From: Arctopsyche grandis
Lineage: Eukaryota > Arthropoda > Insecta > Trichoptera > Hydropsychidae
Length of the DNA: 64,000 bases
Reading direction: 5' to 3'
Assembly (NCBI RefSeq): GCF_051622035.1
Contig: NC_135358.1
Span: 23,192,501-23,256,500 of the forward strand
Part shown: positions 5,741-62,903 of the stretch, piece by piece
How positions within the stretch are numbered: the stretch's first letter is position 1
How the letters are laid out: every line of letters starts with the position of its first letter
Position numbers and translations under genes: made by a program
Notes under the pieces: generated by a model
Seen by the model: only the letters and a program-made list of their open reading frames with translations
Told to the model about the DNA's origin: nothing
Databases searched by the model: none

Positions 5741-6366
5741 ATTTTTTTATTTTTTTTTTATTTATTCATATACATATATTTACAGGATATAATGTTTATT
5801 TCAAAGTTGGACATGTATTCCTTATCAGATAAGAGTAGCTCTTGTGCCTGATAAGGGAGCTACGATTCTATTATAAATCCTTAAAATCTATTATAATATT
5901 TTTTATATAAAAATTACATTAAAATTTTTCAGTGCAAGTTTTTTTTGAAGAAGTGTTTAATTTTTTTTACTTGTTCTGTTTGGTTAACAATACAGCGCAA
6001 TTCAGAAGGGAGATTATTATAGTTATTTATGGCTTGGAAAATATAATGGTTTTGCATTTGTGTTGTTTTAAAATTTGGTGTAATAAATTGGTTTCCATTT
6101 CTCATTAGTTTATAAAATTCTTGATATTCTTTGTTATTTTTTTCTTTACACATTTTTATAATGGAAGCTTGCTTAAATATGTCATCGATATTTGGTACTG
6201 GAAATAGTTTAAAAAGCGATTTTGTCGAGAAAGTAGAGTTTTTTTTAAGTATTACTTTTATAATAATTTTTTGCGAAACTTTTACTGAATTTAGATTGCT
6301 TTTGTAGGATCCTCCCCAACCTATAATTCCATAGATAAGCAGAGAGTGGACAAGGGCATAATACAC
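5741..6366 (-). mobile_element. 5'-truncated LINE, C-terminal reverse-transcriptase region
   Basis: The minus-strand frame 6,366-5,929 (145 aa) carries the post-palm region of a non-LTR reverse transcriptase polyprotein: YYALVHSLLIYGIIGWGGSY near the start, then NLPSEL and a basic C-terminus KKIKHFFKKNLH. The (A/V)LVxSxLxYGIxxWG pattern is typical of CR1/jockey-type LINEs. The 3' UTR runs down to a T-rich border at about 5,741 (an A-rich tail on the element strand). The 5' part, including the catalytic YxDD, is missing, so the copy is dead. Confidence 0.8.
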
Positions 6367-6691
6367 ATTTTTTATTTATTTAACTATTTCCAGGGGAAGG
6401 GGTGGGGGTAAAAATTGGACAATGTGTGGTTGTTTGTTATAAAACTGGGGGGGATGCCAAATTAAGTCCTCGGTAGATGAGGTGTTTGTATTTGTTTTAC
6501 GCATTTTTTTATTGAGAGCCGAATTTACTTAAATAATTATATTATAAATTGTTCGATTTGAATTTATCATATCGAAGTATGTACATACATATAGTATAAT
6601 ATATCGTTTAATATGTAGTTATGGCGTGTGTATTAAGTTTGAGAGTAGTGGCGGCGCATTATTGCACAGATGTTGGAATCCTAAATTAAAG

Positions 6692-6899
6692 GGTAAACGG
6701 ATTATTGCGCAAATTGCGATCGCGCGCACGACAATCATTGCCATAAAAACCGCAAATACGAAATATTTGGCATTCGAATTCTCACAATATTTCGCGTGCA
6801 TAACTTTCGATTGATGTGAGTTTTTGTGTGCCAGATGCTCCGTGATTGAGATTTTAGTGACGTGCGCAAGATCGCTTTTTGCGTAATAATCACCGAACC
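6692..6899. mobile_element. MITE 'm' (208 bp), GGTTCGGTGATTA / GGTAAACGGATTA termini
   Basis: The left end reads GGTAAACGGATTATTGCGC; the right end read inversely is GGTTCGGTGATTATTACGC. The same interior recurs at 33,474-34,130 and 31,118-31,620, and its right end at 1-37. Element family 'a' (29,977, 33,512, 51,861) has the same terminal bases. No transposase frame is present. Superfamily is unassigned; the related 'a' copies have 8-9 bp duplications. Confidence 0.75.
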
Positions 6900-29976: not shown

Positions 29977-30200
29977 GGTTCGGTGATTACTAGACAAATG
30001 TGAACCGGTCGCTCTAGATCGGTCACACGTGATCACCCGTCACACTAAAACTGGTCACACCCTAAAATCGGTTAACCAGTTTTCTCGTGACCGATTTTAG
30101 GGTGTGACCAGTTTTAATGTGACGGGTGATCACGTGTGACCGATCTAGAGCGACCAGTTGTCCTGTGACTGGTTCACATATGACTAGTAGTCCGTTTACC
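29977..30200. mobile_element. Palindromic MITE 'a', copy 1 (224 bp) with 9-bp duplication
   Basis: Starts GGTTCGGTGATTACTAG, ends CTAGTAGTCCGTTTACC, and is flanked on both sides by AAATTTTCA (29,968-29,976 and 30,201-30,209). Nearly the whole element is one inverted repeat (arms with CTCTAGATCGGTCACACGTG / its complement). Contains no frame. A 9-bp duplication would fit Mutator-like elements; copy 2 shows 8 bp. Confidence 0.88.
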
Positions 30201-31151: not shown

Positions 31152-31284
31152 TAAAGCCCGGACCCAGAGGGTGCCGCGTATTGTTCAAATGTTGTAAATG
31201 CATTGTTAATGGTTTGCCGAACCTTTTTTTCAAAGGATTTACAACAATGAAACAATTAGCGGCACTTTGGCTATCCTACCTCTA
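31152..31284. mobile_element. hAT-type MITE 'c', copy 1 (133 bp) with perfect 8-bp duplication
   Basis: Begins TAAAGCCCGGACC and ends GGCTATCCTACCTCTA. GTCATGAC lies directly on both sides (31,144-31,151; 31,285-31,292). Other copies at 52,769 and 63,106. The 8-bp duplication is the hAT signature. Confidence 0.9.
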
Positions 31285-31449
31285 GTCATGACGTCACTAA
31301 AATCTCGACCATGGAATATCTGTCACTAGAAAATTCCACCCATCGAGATTCAAAACGCGAACTATCACTACTATGACACTAACGACAATTTTAGTATTCC
31401 GTATTCGCGATTTTCGTGTGTGCAATCACGATGTGTGAAATTACCCATT

Positions 31450-31608
31450 GGCGTCGTCCACACACACACACACACGGTATCTATACCCGATATTTACGAA
31501 ATTTTACATAACCAGTTCCTAAATAGCAACCACAGGTTGCAATATGGGAACTGGAAATGGAAAATTTCGTAAATATCGGGTGTAGATACCGTGTGTGTGG
31601 ACGACGCC
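31450..31608. mobile_element. Palindromic MITE 'b', copy 1 (159 bp), ATT duplication
   Basis: Inverse ends GGCGTCGTCCACACACAC. Long arms include ACGGTATCTA...CCGATATTTACGAAATTT and its complement. Flanked by ATT (31,447-31,449; 31,609-31,611). GG-initial ends and a 3-bp duplication suggest PIF/Harbinger-like elements. Confidence 0.78.
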
Positions 31609-32834: not shown

Positions 32835-33425
32835 ACCAGCAGAATATACTAGTGGTTGCATATACTGCTTTGAACAGAATGGTCACGGGTTCAAATCCCA
32901 CTGGTTTCTGCTGGTCAGACCTTGGATTTGTGACTTCAGGTCGATCGTTTAGTATTATAGTTGCCAATTTATCTGATTTTCATTGAAACGGTTCCAACAA
33001 ATTGGCAACCTTACCCATTTTCTCGCAAAATCTCGAGTTTTCAGCAATTTCGAATTTCGCTGAATTGTATAAAATGTTGCAAATTTACAAATTTGACCAT
33101 AAATGTGTGTGGATGTGAATTGATATGTATTTACTGAATTTTCGATGAATCATTTAAAATGCTGCAAATTTATAAATTTGACCATAAATGTGTGTGGATG
33201 TGAATTGATATGTATTTACTGAATTTTCGATGAATCATTTAAAATGCTGCAAATTTATAAATTTGTTCATAGATACTCTGTGGATAATAATTTGATATGT
33301 ATTCATGTACTTTGTAAAATACTAATAATATTTGAATCAAATATACAATGTTTCTAGTCAGGAAGGTGCATTGGGGTTTCACCTGTTAAGCTTTCCTTGT
33401 ATAAATTAAAGATAAAATAAATCAT
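32835..33425 (+). mobile_element. tRNA-derived SINE with internal 85-bp tandem repeat
   Basis: A tRNA-like head spans 32,835-32,915: ACCAGCAGAA pairs perfectly with TTCTGCTGGT across the head, an A-box-like TAGTGGTTGCAT follows, and a B box GGGTTCAAATCCC lies at 32,888-32,900. The 3' region contains AGGAAGGTGCATTGGGGTTT and an A/T-rich tail (about 33,360-33,425). The same 3' region recurs inverted at 23,165 and 57,603. Between head and tail an 85-bp unit repeats about 2.5 times (33,066-33,290). Not a functional tRNA. Confidence 0.7.
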
Positions 33426-33497
33426 TAAATACGATTTCAGATGGTATATGCAGGGGATTATAATTGAAATTAAGGTAATTGGATTATTACTCACATT

Positions 33498-33980
33498 GGC
33501 GCCGTCCACACGGTTCGGTGATTACTAGTCAAATGTAAACCGGTCACAGGACAACCGGTGAGGTCTAGATCGGTCACACGTGATCACCCGTCACACTAAC
33601 ACTGGTCACGAGAAAACTGGTCACACCCGAAAACTGGTCACCAGAAGACTGGTCACACCCGAAAATTTGTCCCGAAAAAATTGGTCACACCCAAAAATTA
33701 AAAATTGGTCGAATTTTCGGGTGTGACCAGTTTTCTCGTGACTAGTTTTAGTGTGACGGGTGATCACGTGAGACCGATCTAGAGCGACCGGTTGTCCTGT
33801 GACCGGTTCACATGTGACTAGTAGTCCGTTTACCGTCCACACACAATATATCAACTAACGATATCTACTAGGTCTAGTAAATACCGCGAATCGAACGTAT
33901 GAGAGCATTGCGTTCGAACGCACTGTATTTTCTAGATTCAGTAAATATTGTTAGTTGATATCTTGTGTGTGGACGGCCCC
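33498..33980. mobile_element. MITE 'b-prime', interrupted by MITE 'a'
   Basis: Ends GGCGCCGTCCACAC and (inverse) GGGGCCGTCCACAC; flanks ATT/ATT (33,495-33,497; 33,981-33,983). Arms CAACTAACGATATC and GATATC-side complement GTTAGTTGATATC. Without the 'a' insertion and its duplication it is about 152 bp. Confidence 0.75.
33512..33834. mobile_element. Palindromic MITE 'a', copy 2 (323 bp), inside MITE 'b-prime'
   Basis: GGTTCGGTGATTACTAGTC to GTAGTCCGTTTACC, flanked by GTCCACAC (33,504-33,511; 33,835-33,842), which is sequence of the host MITE. About 100 bp longer than copy 1 because the centre holds several short repeats of ACTGGTCACACCCGAAAA. Confidence 0.88.
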
Positions 33981-34229
33981 ATTGCGATGATCACAAAGAC
34001 AATTTTTGCTATAAAAACCACGAATGCGGAATATTTGCCACTCGAGTTTTCGTTTGTATGATGGACTTTTCGGCTGCCAGATGTTCCGTCATAGAGATTT
34101 TAGTGACTTTTGAGGGGGCGCTTTGTGACCAACGAAATTAAATGTGTCGACGTACACGCAGGGAATATATTTTTAGGCAGTGTGCACGCGATGGAAAAAG
34201 TAGGTAATTGGCAAGTGGCAGATGGCGAT

Positions 34230-34700
34230 GGCAACCCCGCAGTGTCGCTTTCTCGCGGGCGGCGCGAGCGGCTGCGGCCGTCGCCTCCCGCACTCTAGCG
34301 CTCTCGCTTTCGTTCTCGTTCTCGCTCTCGCTCTCGCTCTCACTCTCACTCTTCGGCCCTCCGCCCCCGAGCCGCGGCCCCCCCCCGGCCCCCTGCCCCT
34401 CGGCCCCTCCGTTGACACGCGTCGTCGTGCCATTGCGCCATTTCACCGTTCATCGTTCGTCGTTCGTCGTTCACCGTTCACCGTTCACCGTCTCGCTGTC
34501 CTACATTGCATTGCATTGCGTCGAGTTGCCTCGGCTGGGTGGGAAACGCCCCTCGGAGTGCGCCCCCGGCCCCCCGCCCCCGCCCCCGCCCCCGCCCCAC
34601 TCTCGGATCGCTCTTCATTCAGGTATCGCCATCTTTTCGACACCTTCACCTTCACCTCACCTCACCTCACCTCACCTCTCCTCACCTCCATACACTCCCA
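34230..34700 (+). promoter_or_regulatory. GC-rich 5' region of ARID4
   Basis: GC-rich block with (TCTCGC)n/(TCTCAC)n at about 34,300-34,355, CCCGCC repeats near 34,570-34,600 and CACCT repeats near 34,650-34,680. TTCAG/GTATCG near 34,622 is a plausible donor of a non-coding first exon. Frames open here (up to 191 aa) are compositional. Confidence 0.5.
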
Positions 34701-38100: not shown

Positions 38101-40544
38101 AACCACACGAGGAGAAAGATCATTTTGTAGCTCAATTGTATAAATTTATGGATGATAGAGGAACTCCTTTAAATCTCCAACCTACTATCGCTAATAAAGA
38201 TATAGATCTATATCGTCTATTTAATGTAAGTTGTTTTAATATTTACAGTTTTTTTTCAAAATATTTGTTTTTAACTTTAACATGGGAATGTTATTTACAG
38301 GTAGTACAAAAACTAGGTGGTTATAACAGAGTGACAAATCAAAATCAATGGAGGAAGATTTCGTTGAGGTTGGGCTTTGTTCCTGCTACTTCTAGTGTTA
38401 CAAATTCGTGTAGACAAGCTTATAAAAAGTAAAGATATTTATTCATTCCAATTCATTCAATGTGACATGTTGTAATTATATTGAGATCTTACTTATACGT
38501 ATTTTTGTTTTTAGATTTTTACATAGTTTTGAAGATTTCTATCGTAAACTTGGGGTTACACTTCTGTCACATCCTAGAAGTGGTAGAACGACAGGTCGAA
38601 GTCTTATTAGAGATAAAGATAAAATGCATAGTAGTTCAACACCAAAGTCTGCCAGTCCAGCTCCACCGACTGCAACAGTTTCTAGTGAAGTAAATAAAAA
38701 AAAAAAAAAAATATATATCTAATCTATAATTTGGAAAGAGACTTTGTATGTATCCTTGGTCGTCGTCTTCTTCGTCGTCTTCTTCGTCGTCCGTAGATCG
38801 GTGACGTCATCGAACACGTGATTCGTTTTTTTTTTTTTCGATCCATGGGCGCCGATTTGTTTTTTTCGATTCAATGGATTCACCCCCGCGGGGGCGCAAG
38901 GCGAGTAGTTTCATGGGGCCCCGCCAGGGGCGCCACAAGGGGCGCAGCCCCGTGGGGCCCCGAAGGGGGCCCGGGGGGCCCAGCCTCATGGGGCGCAGCC
39001 CCATGGGGCTCAAAAGGGGGCGCCACGAGGGGCGCAGCCCCGTGGGGCCCCGGGGGGGCCCAGCCTCATGGGGCGCAGCCCTATGGGGCTCAAAAGGGGG
39101 CGCCACAAGGGGCGCAGCCCCGTGGGGCCCCGAAAGGGGCCCGGGGGGCCCAGCCTCATGGGGCGCAGCCCCATGGGGCTCAAAAGGGGGCGCCACGAGG
39201 GGCGCAGCCCCGTGGGGCCCCGGGGGGGCCCAGCCTCATGGGGCGCAGCCCCATGGGGCTCAAAAGGGGGCGCCACAAGGGGCGCAGCCCCGTGGGGCCC
39301 CGTGGGGCCCCGAAAGGGGCCCGGGGGGCCCAGCCTCATGGGGCGCAGCCCCATGGGGCTCAAAAGGGGGCGCCACAAGGGACGCAGCCCCGTGGGGCCC
39401 CGAAGGGGGCCCGGGGGGCCCAGCCTCATGGGGCGCAGCCCCATGGGGCTCAAAAGGGGGCGCCACGAGGGGCGCAGCCCCGTGGGGCCCCGGGGGGGCC
39501 CAGCCTCATGGGGCGCAGCCCCATGGGGCTCAAAAGGGGGCGCCACATGGGGCGCAGCCCCGTGGGGTCCCGAAGGGGGCCCGGGGGGCCCAGCCTCATG
39601 GGGCGCAGCCCCATGGGGCTCAAAAGGGGGTGCCACAAGGGGCGCAGCCCCGTGGGGCCCCGAATGGGGGCCCGGGGGGCCCAGCCTCATGGGGCGCAGC
39701 CCCATGGGGCTCAAAAGGGGGCGCCACAAGGGGCGCAGCCCCGTGGGGCCCCGAAGGGGGCCCGGGGGGCCCAGCCTCATGGGGCGCAAGCCCTAATAGG
39801 CATTAACTAAGGGGGGCGAAGCCCTAGACGGCAATTAATCATGGGGGCGCGGAGGGGCGAAGCCCTAAAAGGCAACTGATCATGGGGGCGAAGCCTTAGA
39901 CGGCATTTAATCATGGGGGCGCGGAGGGGCGAAGCCCTAAAAGGCATTAACTAAGGGGGGCGAAGCCCTAAACGGCAATTAATCTTGGGGGCGCGGGGGG
40001 CGAAGCCCTAAAAGGCATTAACTAGGGGGGGCGAAGCCCTAGACGGCATTTAATCATGGGGGTGCGGAGGGGCGAAGCCCTAAAAGGCATTAACTAAGGG
40101 GGGCGAAGCCCGAAACGGCAATTAATCTTGGGGGCGCGGGGGGCGAAGCCCTAAAAGGCATTAACTAAGGGGGGCGAAGCCCTAGACGGCTTTGAATCAT
40201 GGGGGCGCGGAGGGGCGAAGCCCTAAAAGGCAACTGATCATGGGGGCGAAGCCCTAAACGGCAATTGCTCATGGGGCGTGGAGGGGCGAAGCCCTAGAAG
40301 GCAAAGGCTCAGGGGGGTGCCGAGGGCGAAGCCCTAGAAGGCAAAAAAAAAAATTAGATTTTTTTTTTGATTTTTTTTTTTTATTTTTTTTTTGATTTTT
40401 TTTTTTTTATTTTTAATTTTTTTTTAATTTTTTTTTTAAATTTTTTAATTTTTTTTTAATTTTTTTTTTTTTTAATTAAATTAGCTTAGTCATGTTTAAG
40501 CGGTTTATATTATAAACACTGAGCGAAGCCGGGTAATACAGCTA

Positions 40545-46600: not shown

Positions 46601-49600
46601 AAAATATTTGGAAAAGGTTATAAGATAGAATATAAGAAGAAATTGAAATTTACAAATATAAAAAACAAATGAAAAAGGTAAATACAAAATAAACAAATGA
46701 AATGGAAAGGAATGAAAGCTATAATATGATTAAATAGCACATTACATAACTAAACTAAAGTATAAAAATAATGGAAATATTGGAAAAATAGAATAGAAGA
46801 AAAAATGAATCAATCGGTCAAGATTCTCTTGATGTTAGACCTGAATTGATGTAGGGAAATACCAAACAGATCAACCTCATTCAGCTCTCCGTTAAACATA
46901 CGATAAACGCGCTGCAGATAAAAATATTTTTGGGAATTAGTATTGAAAGGATCAAGTGAAAAGAGTGTAACGCGTCTAGGGTATCGAACTGGGATTCTGA
47001 AATTAACCTTATTCAGTAAATCAGAACAATCAAGGAAACCATTTATGAGCTTAAAGAAGAATATAGCATCAGAATGTCGTCGCCTGACAGAAAGATTGTT
47101 AAAAGAAAGGATTTTTAAAATGTCGGAAACAGTAGAATGGGTATAGGTAGGAAAAAGGTAGCGTAAGGATTTAATAAATTTAAGTTGAACTTTCTCAATA
47201 CAATTAATATGGGATAAATAAAAAGGTGACCAGATAATTGAGGCAAATTCAAGGTGAGACCTTACAAAGGAAAAATAAAGTAATTTTAGTACATAAGGAT
47301 CATTAAAGGGTTTTGTTGAGCGGAGTAGGAATCCAAGAGATTTAAATGCTTTGTTGGTAATAAAAGAAATATGTTCAGAGAAATCTAGTTTATTATTGAG
47401 TATTACACCAAGATCCTTAATAGAAGATGACGTGTTAAGGATTGAATGATTTAATTGATATTGATTAGTAATAATTGACTTATTTCTAGTGAAATTTAAA
47501 ATAGAGCATTTTTCTAGATTAATAAAAAGATCTATATTATTATCTATATTAATAAAAAGATGTATATTATTCTAATGTGTTGTTTTAGGGAAGGATCCAT
47601 GCTTTCATTTTTCGGCGCTTTCCGACCCACTTTAGACTAGGGTTTAAAACAGTTTTCATCTTCTATATGCGAAAATCTATATTTTAAGTATTTCCTCTTT
47701 TTCCCACACCCAAGATCTGAGGACTGTCCTTTTAATGTTTTGCTCCAAAATGCTAATCATATTTTGAAAATTTTCCACGTTGTATCTCACCTCTTTTGCT
47801 ATTTCAGTTTTCAACTACTGATCCATATCCATGCGTGTGAAAAAAATACGTATAGCTTGAGAGGTTTATAAAAGAATGTCAGAATGAATATTTTATTATA
47901 CTTTTCCACTTTGAAAGTTAGAAAAATTAAAGCTTAATTATTAACCGGCAATTGAAAACTGATGGCGAATATATTCAAATTGTATCGTTTAAGAAATTGT
48001 TTGAATTTCTGTTTAAGATAAACTTAAACAATTACATATATCGTGACAGTTTCATATGTTTTAATCATAACCATAATGGAAAATTTCTATTAAAGGAGTA
48101 AATATAGGATGCCGTCTCCTTCAACATTTAGGCCAAAATAAATAATTGTCTGTTCGCGGAAAGGTAGGCCTTAAATGTTGGTAGCAATATTTTGATTACT
48201 GCGTATCTTTCAACGTTAATATGTCTCTTTGCGTCATTCCAACATTTGTGTGCCCTTAAACAACCCTTTGCATACTATTGAGAGTACGTGTACTCTGGTT
48301 GGGAACCGCTGATTTAAATTATGTATTTCTTATATAAAATGTAATTTCAGAGATCAACAATTATCTGATGTTGAAAATCAGTGTGATATGAAATTAATCG
48401 AAGATGATTGTAGAATAGCGGCATCATCTAAAAAATCTAATGAAATTGAAAAAAGTAGTTCAGGTATGTTTTTATAATGTGTGTGAATACAATGTTTATC
48501 AGTAATTGTATTGTTAACGTGAATGCGCCATTATCAGGTAATATTATACGTACGAGTGCACCGAACAGTCCTGGAGCAGGTCCACGGAGAGGTCGTCGTC
48601 CTCGAGGTTGTCGTCTAAGTGATAGTGAGGATCAAATTACAGTTTCCTCATATTCGCATTCAAATCCACACAGACAGACAAAGTACAATTTTTATTCAGA
48701 AATTGGTATGTATGATTTATTGGAATGTATTTTCGGATCTACATATTAAATATACGTATATAATTATCGTTGTGATTATATTTTTAAGCAGATCCTATGT
48801 TGGACGGAGCTGCTCGAATAGCTTTGATCACATCACGGCTATCGGAGTTAAGGAAAGTGTATCATAGTTTAAAAGTAGAACTTGCTACAATAGACAGAAG
48901 AAGAAAAAAAATTCGACGGAAAGAAAGAGAAGGTATTGAGTTAATTGTTGTCATTGAATATTTAATTTTTTTTACAGTTTTGTATGATTATTATGGCTTA
49001 ATTTATTAACTGTGAATAATGTAAGTTAATTAAAATGGAAATTGTAAACGATTTACAGAGCAATCTTTATGGTAAAAGTATCCTTATTACAGAATTTAAT
49101 TTATGACAAACGGAGCACAGTTGATTTGTAAAAAATGTAATTTTTTGATTCTTTAAAGTTTATCTTTTATTTTTCAGCTTAAAGTTTGCAGTCTTATGTG
49201 ACGAAGCCACACACAAACATTGTGTTTACATATTACTTTTGATATAAAAATTTGCAATTCATTGCTGTATTTATGTATATTACTGTGAAATTGCAGAACT
49301 GATTATAAGTAGTGTATAAAACTTTATGTTGATATACTTTTACATGTTATCATATGGAGAGGTTTTTAAAATAATGTTGACAATCGTCTTTTTCATTATT
49401 ATGCAGAATATATGTTTTCGTTAATTTTACATAAAATTTTAAAAACATCTCTCACTCTAAGTGTGTATTATATAAGTTATTTTTCTGCATAAAATTGATA
49501 GAGGCTGATCCCACGACCACGTTTTATATATTCAGTATATGATAATCATTTTCATCTTAAAAGTTGTTACACACATGGTTTGGGAATTAGTCTCGATATT

Positions 49601-51632: not shown

Positions 51633-51783
51633 GGCGTCGTCCACACACACGGTATCTACAACCGATATTTAAGAAATTTTCCATATCCAGTTCCCATATT
51701 GCAACTTGTGGCTGCTATTTAGGAACTGATTCTGGAAAATTTCGTAAATATCGGGTGTAGATACCGTGTGTGTGGACGACGCC
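51633..51783. mobile_element. Palindromic MITE 'b', copy 2 (151 bp)
   Basis: Same ends (GGCGTCGTCCACACACAC both ways) and interior as 31,450-31,608. The centre, ATTGCAACTTGTGGCTG, is inverted relative to copy 1. No clear duplication. Confidence 0.85.
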
Positions 51784-51860: not shown

Positions 51861-52026
51861 GGTTCGGTGATTATTAGTCAAATGTGAACCGGTCACAGGA
51901 CAACCGGTCGCTCTAGATCGGTCACACGTGATCACCCGTCACACTAAAACTGGTCACACCCGAAAATTAGTCACGAAAAAACTGGTCACACCCAAAAATT
52001 CGACCAATTTTTAATTTTTGATTATA
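51861..52026. mobile_element. MITE 'a', copy 3, one arm only
   Basis: GGTTCGGTGATTATTAGTC and the following arm match copies 1 and 2 up to the centre (ACTGGTCACACCC repeats); the second arm is absent. Confidence 0.8.
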
Positions 52027-61588: not shown

Positions 61589-62903
61589 CAGCTGTGGACA
61601 AATGTATTAACCACTAAAAATAGTTATGACCGAAAATAATCGGGTATTAGAAACAGCCACATCGGGTATTAGTAACAGCATTGCATCTTACTAGCAATTC
61701 CTCTATTGTTTAATCAAGGTTTCTCTTCTTTGGTTACTTATTATTTAAAAAAATACGAAATTGTTGATTTTACGCTAATTAGTGTTTCGAGAGAAGTGGT
61801 TGCGTCACGTTGTCTTATCGTCCCTTTTTTTTGATTTGGTGAAGGGAACAAATCTCAAATCATTTTAATATATTTTCAAGGGTCGAAATAAATAAAAAAA
61901 ACTCCAAACAACTTAAATTATGTGCGGTCCAAACGACATGTAAATGATACAGTGAGATTGGTTCTATATAAAAATTATGAAAAACGGGAAGAATATCGAA
62001 GAGAGTACGGTGTTACGATCTTATTATAACGACCACGTCTTTCAAAATCCCAAAAGCGAACCTTCTGAGACAGTTGGAGAAGTGAAAAAGGAATGATCTT
62101 GGGGTTGCATTTCAGAGTGACCTATTTGGGGAGTGGGGTTGCATTTCTGAGGCTGCTGTACAATGCTCTAGTTAGGAGTATCTTGGAATACTCCTCTATG
62201 ATCTGGAGTCCTTTAACCAAATCTCTATCTATCAAACTCGAACTTATCCAAAGACAATTTCTTCGGCTGCTTTATAAGGAGCAATATGGGATTTTCCCAT
62301 ATTTATTTCCTTTAAAATTCGTCATGGGTATGGTCGGCTATAGTTCTCTTGAACACAGGAGGAGTGTTGCCCTCATCAAGTTCTTGTTTTCCATATTTAG
62401 AGGTTTTATCTCCTGTCCGTCTATCCTGGCTGAGTTGGGCCTTCATGCTCCGGAGAGTTTGATATTGACCCGCCATCGCCCCTTTTTTCACACTCCTCTA
62501 GCTAGAACTGTGGCTTATAGCAATTCTCCCATTCCTCGTGGCCTCCGTTTCTTAAATTCACTGGATTGTGCTATTGACATTTGTCACATCTCTCGTCATT
62601 TTCTGCACCACTTCCTAGGCTACGGAGTTCGCGACCAATTAGAACTGTTGAGTTAGTTTGATCAGTTAAGAATTTTTAAGAATTTTTATGTCATGTTTAT
62701 TTATTTTTCTTTTCTTCTATTCATGTCTTTTTACTTGTATTTCATGTAGTTTTTTCCTTTTTGGAGCAATCTGTTAGACGAGTGTGCTAGATTAATTTAT
62801 GTATAATAAAATAAAAAAAAATTAAGATTTTCTTCATAAGACGTCTTATGGAAGCTCAAAACCATTGTTTACAAGTGGCCTAATACATTTGTCCACCACT
62901 GTG
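61589..62903. mobile_element. Decayed Tc1/mariner element interrupted by a LINE
   Basis: TA at 61,587-61,588 and 62,904-62,905. Ends CAGCTGTGGACAAATGTATT and, inverse, CACAGTGGTGGACAAATGTA are Tc1-like. The interior before 62,094 shows a degenerate DNA-binding-region trace (RPRLSKSQKRT) split by stops and frameshifts. The LINE at 62,094-62,823 divides it. Confidence 0.65.
62094..62823 (+). mobile_element. 5'-truncated LINE, C-terminal reverse-transcriptase region
   Basis: The frame to 62,656 (about 187 aa) reads YNALVRSILEYSSMIWSPLT, KLELIQRQFLRLLYKE, then LGLHAPESLILTRHRPFF, and ends FLGYGVRDQLELLS. This is the thumb/C-terminal part of a jockey/R1/CR1-like LINE. A 3' UTR and A-rich tail follow (AAAATAAAAAAAAATT). 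5' truncated and inactive. Confidence 0.82.

Follow-up and report, generated by a model that had tools for sequence, protein, structure and literature searches.

Evidence for three nested MITE insertions within 676 bp of the Arctopsyche grandis genome

The Locus and Its Features

In Arctopsyche grandis, the window (the whole 64,000-nucleotide stretch of DNA that was analysed, C4:23192501-23256500 of the 475.7 Mb genome) contains at 33466-34141 a compact nest of three short repeats, in which an element m is split by an element b' and b' is itself split by an element a. The features of this nest, together with further copies of a and m in the window, are given below in window coordinates, with the strand where one applies.

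33466..33473: left copy of the target-site duplication (TSD) of m, GAAATTAA, 8 bp; its partner lies at 34134-34141
33474-34133: m as a whole, 174 bp without b' and one ATT
33474..33497, + strand: left piece of m, GGTAATTGGATTATTACTCACATT; gap-free at the junction when compared with uninterrupted m copies
33495..33497: left ATT of the b' TSD, which is also m sequence; supported by the duplications of the b' family
33498-33980: b' as a whole, 152 bp without a and one duplication
33498..33511, + strand: left piece of b', terminal inverted repeat GGCGCCGTCCACAC
33504..33511: left copy of the a TSD, GTCCACAC, within the terminal repeat of b'
33512..33834, + strand: element a, taken as a fold-back MITE, 323 bp, with ends GGTTCGGTGATTACTAG and CTAGTAGTCCGTTTACC; supported by 28 genomic loci examined for ends and by the hairpin
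33835..33842: right copy of the a TSD, GTCCACAC
33835..33980, + strand: right piece of b', terminating in GTGTGTGGACGGCCCC; supported by genome copies and alignment
33981..33983: right ATT of the b' TSD
33984..34133, + strand: right piece of m, terminating in GTGACCAAC, 12 bp before the family consensus end GATCACCGAACC
34134..34141: right copy of the m TSD, GAAATTAA
6692..6899, + strand: relative of m in which the end motifs GGTAAACGGATTA and TAATCACCGAACC recur; similarity of 69% across 171 columns
29977..30200, + strand: second copy of a, full; a 9-bp duplication, AAATTTTCA, was identified by eye
51861..52021, + strand: third copy of a, partial, with the right end missing

Just upstream of the nest lies a tandem array with 2.9 copies of an 85-bp unit (33055-33303), and directly downstream follows a G+C-rich stretch with simple repeats (34240-34700), possibly near a gene start. 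A second G+C-rich region, a repeated array in which several frames are open, is found at 38909-39800. Open reading frames (ORFs) at 46810-47571, 62069-62656 and 5929-6375 resemble the ends of reverse transcriptases from non-LTR retrotransposons; in six window ORFs, these three included, Pfam returned no match.

An initial annotation of this DNA had described three MITEs nested inside one another, a description that is borne out by the coordinates, the duplications and the family ends. It had counted two levels as proven by duplications, and both of these, ATT for b' and GTCCACAC for a, stand; the count was too low, the third level being the GAAATTAA pair around m, which had been missed. Of the span then assigned to m, 33474..34130, the start is retained and the end is moved to 34133.

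How often such pairs arise by chance was determined within the window. For the distance that separates the two GTCCACAC copies, 8 of 63,661 positions carry identical 8-mers, and for that between the GAAATTAA copies, 3 of 63,324 do; for the ATT distance, 1,415 of 63,511 positions carry identical 3-mers. Since the latter corresponds to 2.2% of the window positions, the ATT pair is weak when taken singly and leans on the b' family data. The positions of the duplications are, moreover, constrained, in that they abut family ends set by other copies and are not freely chosen.

Elements a and b'

Element a is a nearly full palindrome, with inverted arms (40 and 70 nt) that contain repeated sub-units. 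Folded as DNA, it yields a hairpin of -131.4 kcal/mol (z -22 against 100 shuffles). Arms and hairpin agree with the earlier description of a as a palindromic MITE, yet a is not the only palindrome of the nest, given that b' is palindromic as well, with 52-nt arms that are 87% complementary. In its near-full palindromy and repeated arm sub-units, a is presumably comparable to the fold-back elements or fold-back MITEs.

For the analysis of its ends, 28 a loci were used, comprising the window (L001) and the best-scoring of 2,853 whole-block candidates, which is not a random sample; the end types scored were GGTTCGGTGATTACTAG and GGTAAACGGACTACTAG. According to the rule of the script, the flanking duplication is exact over 8 bp at 14 loci and over 9 bp at three, contains one mismatch at four, and is absent from seven. 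Among these seven, L006 gains an exact 8-bp pair, GCGGTCAG, when an alternative nearby right end, which itself carries one mismatch, is used.

The b' family, with the end motif GGSGCCGTCCACAC, is smaller. All 29 first-look candidates of the b' search were scored, and 14 distinct insertions were read in L029-L059, with nine partial matches left out. L035-L039 constitute one insertion together with L032; L046-L050, L052, L053 and L055-L058 are reverse-strand matches, and L051 falls within L059. In a tally made by eye, identical ATT or AAT pairs flank 9 of the 14 insertions (the focal copy, L030, L031, L032, L040, L041, L043, L045 and L059) and identical TAT or ATA pairs another two (L033 and L034); the pair is imperfect (AAT/ATT) in L042 and not determinable in L044 and L054. 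Twelve of the 14 insertions are free of a.

Two b' relatives with ends GGCGTCGTCCACACACAC are also present in the window, at 31450-31608 (flanked by ATT/ATT) and at 51633-51783 (flanked by TAT/AAT). An m-like sequence at 31282-31418 adjoins the former. This copy was considered as a further b-type element within m and not counted, as the alignment stops short of crossing the junction.

When a and one copy of GTCCACAC are removed, the two pieces of b' join without a gap at the junction. In an alignment of 12 copies (with L054 left out of the tree), 3.9% of the 152 sites in the rejoined focal b' depart from the leave-one-out consensus (K2P 0.041).

The GTCCACAC pair could in principle also have originated from recombination between the terminal repeats of two b-type elements and not from an insertion of a. 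Indeed, GTCCACAC is found four times in the window and always at b-family ends (31456, 33504, 33835 and 51639), and at L012, a truncated b-family end lies flush against an a that has no duplication. However, the second GTCCACAC of the nest begins exactly at the end of a, with no GGCGCC ahead of it, exact duplications of 8-9 bp occur at 17 of the 28 a loci, and b' is restored without a gap once a and one copy are left out. On the grounds of the a-locus duplications and the b' alignment, recombination was rejected as a very improbable origin of the pair; insertion of a into the terminal repeat of b' is the reading followed below.

Element m

The family consensus of m is 186 bp long (GGTAATTGGATTATTAGTCACATTGCGATGG ... 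GTGACCAATGATCACCGAACC). The focal m falls short of its last 12 bp, with the duplication directly after the cut. We read the missing 12 bp as a later small deletion, and the m duplication hinges on that reading.

Since only the part of m to the right of b' was used as the query, the left side of m serves as an independent check. The best 40 of 1,355 candidates were scored and 30 loci were fetched; leaving out the window (L061) as well as L070, L071, L072 and L082, which share their flanks with L069 on C2, 25 distinct loci result. Their duplications are, by the rule of the script, exact over 8 bp in four cases and over 9 bp in six, with one mismatch in eight and none found in seven. In 21 of the 25 distinct copies, the site of b' is unoccupied and m is uninterrupted there; as for the other four, the stretch is absent from L064, L081 and L089, and L068 is without a proper left end. 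Several copies of m and b' in C2:26.07-26.24 Mb and C2:37.24-37.75 Mb have common flanks, and these regions are probably duplicated segments.

The initial annotation had stated that removal of the inserts restores a continuous m like the copy at 6,692. The continuity holds; as a model for the restored element, the 6692..6899 relative is a poor match and L009 a better one (81% across 191 columns with 25 gaps). At the flanks of the 6692..6899 relative, no matching 8-9 bp duplication was seen.

Judged from these features, and with coding capacity assessed from ORF lists, a, b' and m all qualify as MITEs: they are short and non-coding, possess terminal inverted repeats and TSDs of near-fixed length, and recur in repeated copies.

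Occurrence of the Nest as a Block

A further explanation holds that the block is a composite mobile unit, i.e., a chimeric MITE transposing in one piece; the initial annotation had named the occurrence of the block as a single unit at many sites as the finding that would speak against nesting. The contiguity of the three pieces within one outer 8-bp duplication agrees with such a unit. The whole 657-bp block was used as a query, and the best 40 of the 2,853 first-look candidates were scored, giving 93 matches. Among these best 40, only the window itself is matched over positions 1-657, and a full second copy of the block would be expected among the top-ranked candidates. The single other match that reaches beyond a and takes in 30 bases of b' (query 39-391) is L012 (C10:21816524-21816893), where the truncated b-family end and the missing duplication constitute an arrangement different from that of the nest. 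At the other loci read in the genome, a, b' and m each occur apart with their own ends and duplications, and empty sites exist among paralogous copies. A composite unit, rejected on the whole-block search with its best 40 candidates scored, is even less probable than recombination between b-type ends.

Least probable of all is an assembly artefact joining unrelated repeats: abundant families such as a and m can mislead assemblers, but every junction coincides with a family end and an exact duplication, and the contig is chromosome-sized (37.1 Mb).

Order and Age of the Insertions

The nest almost certainly consists of three MITEs that arrived in the order m, b', a through three separate cut-and-paste insertions. 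An element that splits another arrives after the element it splits, which gives this order, the same as that put forward in the initial annotation; it follows from the logic of nesting together with the three duplications, and divergence is silent on it. On this reading, m inserted first, at GAAATTAA; b' then entered m at ATT (m bases 22-24), and a was the last to insert, at GTCCACAC within the left terminal repeat of b'.

The distances of the focal copies to their consensus sequences are 0.060 for m, 0.041 for b' and 0.097 for a, and the terminal branches are 0.062 for m, 0.051 for a and 0.037 for b'. For a, 24 copies were used (the focal one, one other in the window, and 22 from among the 27 other loci). 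Ranked by divergence, the three elements do not come out in the order of nesting. Divergence lends no support to b' being older than a, nor is it a clear contradiction, because the a family is heterogeneous. Furthermore, the arms of a may exchange sequence, which would make the element a poor clock. For cut-and-paste elements in general, dating by nested insertion is described as less informative in the available excerpt of PMC4016481.

Affinities of the Three Families

Elements a and m have asymmetric ends in common, with GGTTCGGTGAT on one side and GGTAAAC or GGTAATT on the other; a ends in GGTTCGG/GGTAAAC and m in GGTTCGG/GGTAATT. In matching orientation, 17 of 21 and 16 of 21 end positions are identical between a and m; the swapped pairing gives 14 and 11.

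Merlin elements are characterised, in the part of PMC8101967 that was available, by terminal GG, duplications of 8 or 9 bp and terminal repeats of 24-462 bp; the 8-9 bp Merlin duplications are also given in the accessible text of PMC4482050. Duplications of 8 or 9 bp were found for both a (14 and 3 of 28 loci) and m (4 and 6 of 25), and both have terminal 5'-GG. With regard to the terminal repeats, a has the 40- and 70-nt arms given above, and the repeat of m seems to be short and imperfect. Long imperfect terminal repeats with internal tandem repeats may be a further likeness of a to Merlin (DDE_Tnp_IS1595) in the same portion of PMC8101967.

The common ends, the terminal GG and the 8-9 bp duplications make Merlin-like the most likely label, and going by these sequence traits, a and m are probably Merlin-like; their mobilisation is most likely owed to related transposases, probably Merlin-type enzymes.

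Merlin-domain matches are found 41 times in the genome, and one ORF at L091 contains a Merlin domain according to Pfam (1.3e-14). At the 10 of these 41 domain loci that were read, with ~1.5 kb flanks, no a/m ends spanning a Merlin transposase were seen. Relatives of m adjoin the Merlin domain in L097 and L098. In a Merlin-derived repeat at L094, the end TGGTAAAAGTTGG has only its first bases in common with the GGTAAAC end. A repeat family with a C-terminal piece of a Merlin transposase, present in several copies between inverted arms, was observed at L094, L095, L096, L098, L099 and L100. At two loci read out of 60 MULE transposase matches, no a/m ends were found around the transposase. The a end (25 letters) has no exact match in viral contigs.

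Element b' is a member of another family, one of low copy number. The Pangu group of PHIS (PIF/Harbinger-ISL2EU-Spy) elements has, according to the available portion of PMC4482050, 3-bp ANT duplications and ends starting with GG, and b' resembles this group in both its 3-bp ANT duplication and its GG start. Among the 11 identical b' pairs, nine are ATT or AAT and two are TAT or ATA, which are not ANT; the remaining 3 of the 14 insertions have imperfect or non-determinable pairs. Because the ANT duplication and the GG start fit the Pangu group, the balance tips slightly towards a Pangu-like assignment of b'. A transposase partner for b' was not encountered, and in the 1.8 kb stretch with b' ends at L059, the ORF list contains no ORF >148 aa.

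All three families may already carry names in Repbase or Dfam. A literature search with the end letters of a and m gave no transposon-titled paper among the matches listed, as judged by titles.

Other Interrupted Copies and Possible Target Preference

Interrupted b' elements are found beyond the focal locus, in 4 of the 14 distinct insertions in total: the focal copy and L042 are interrupted by a, while L043 and L059 are interrupted by a 365-bp palindromic repeat family. At L042 (C13:15548353; 1028-1607), a lies inside b' at a site that differs from the focal one and is flanked by a 9-bp duplication, CTAGTAAAT. The same b' also holds a 162-bp insert, which starts with GGGCCGGGCC and is flanked by TAA; presumably, it resembles a PIF/Harbinger-type MITE. 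With both inserts taken out, this b' matches the consensus at 97.4% across all 152 bases, with no gap.

At L043, b' is split by a palindromic insert of 365 bp (1137-1501) with AACTAAC on both sides. This repeat recurs in L100:1950-2327 and inside the stretch at L059 (1513-1907; 85% over 395 columns). The latter locus (C4:33276000; 1013-2814) harbours 1.8 kb with b' ends and ATT pairs within a relative of m, whose joined flanks align across the junction (66 columns, 86%). Element b' lies in m or a relative of it in 2 of the 14 insertions, the focal one and L059, the former having been picked because it is nested.

Several elements lie close to one another without being nested. At L033:1646-1945, an a with an exact duplication, GATAAACC, starts 11 bases past the end of b', and at L026, a lies ~25 bases from a b relative. 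In L006 and L010, a lies ~10-20 bases from an m end; here, the query held both a and m sequence, so that such places were favoured. L033, L042, L043 and L059, on the other hand, derive from the query with b' only and are free of this bias.

When the focal copy is left out, a is located in or within 20 bp of b' in 2 of 13 insertions, against ~0.12 expected from the density of a, taken from either the flanks or the window (Poisson P ~0.007), a value that is a lead only, as the cut-off for proximity was set after the cases had been seen and the numbers are small. That b' MITEs are favoured landing sites, with MITE ends or hairpins attracting insertion, is accordingly an unlikely though not fanciful explanation of these cases; if true, the attraction of insertions by b' would be a testable target preference.

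Significance of the Nest

Nested insertions are well known, e.g., a Tourist-like MITE within rice MULEs, as related in the available section of PMC3903597. That case and the present nest are alike in that one element has inserted into another; by comparison with what this section relates, the present nest differs in being made of three MITEs and in spanning 676 bp with the outer duplications counted. For the silkworm, a survey lists MITE families with duplications of 2-9 bp in the part of PMC2997013 available.

The nest is an ordinary MITE-into-MITE insertion and a clean case of a common event. While the general view of how transposons work is unaltered, ends and duplications are now defined for three families. 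The nest constitutes a stratigraphy of three transpositions in less than 700 bp, which helps to order the MITE families of this genome.
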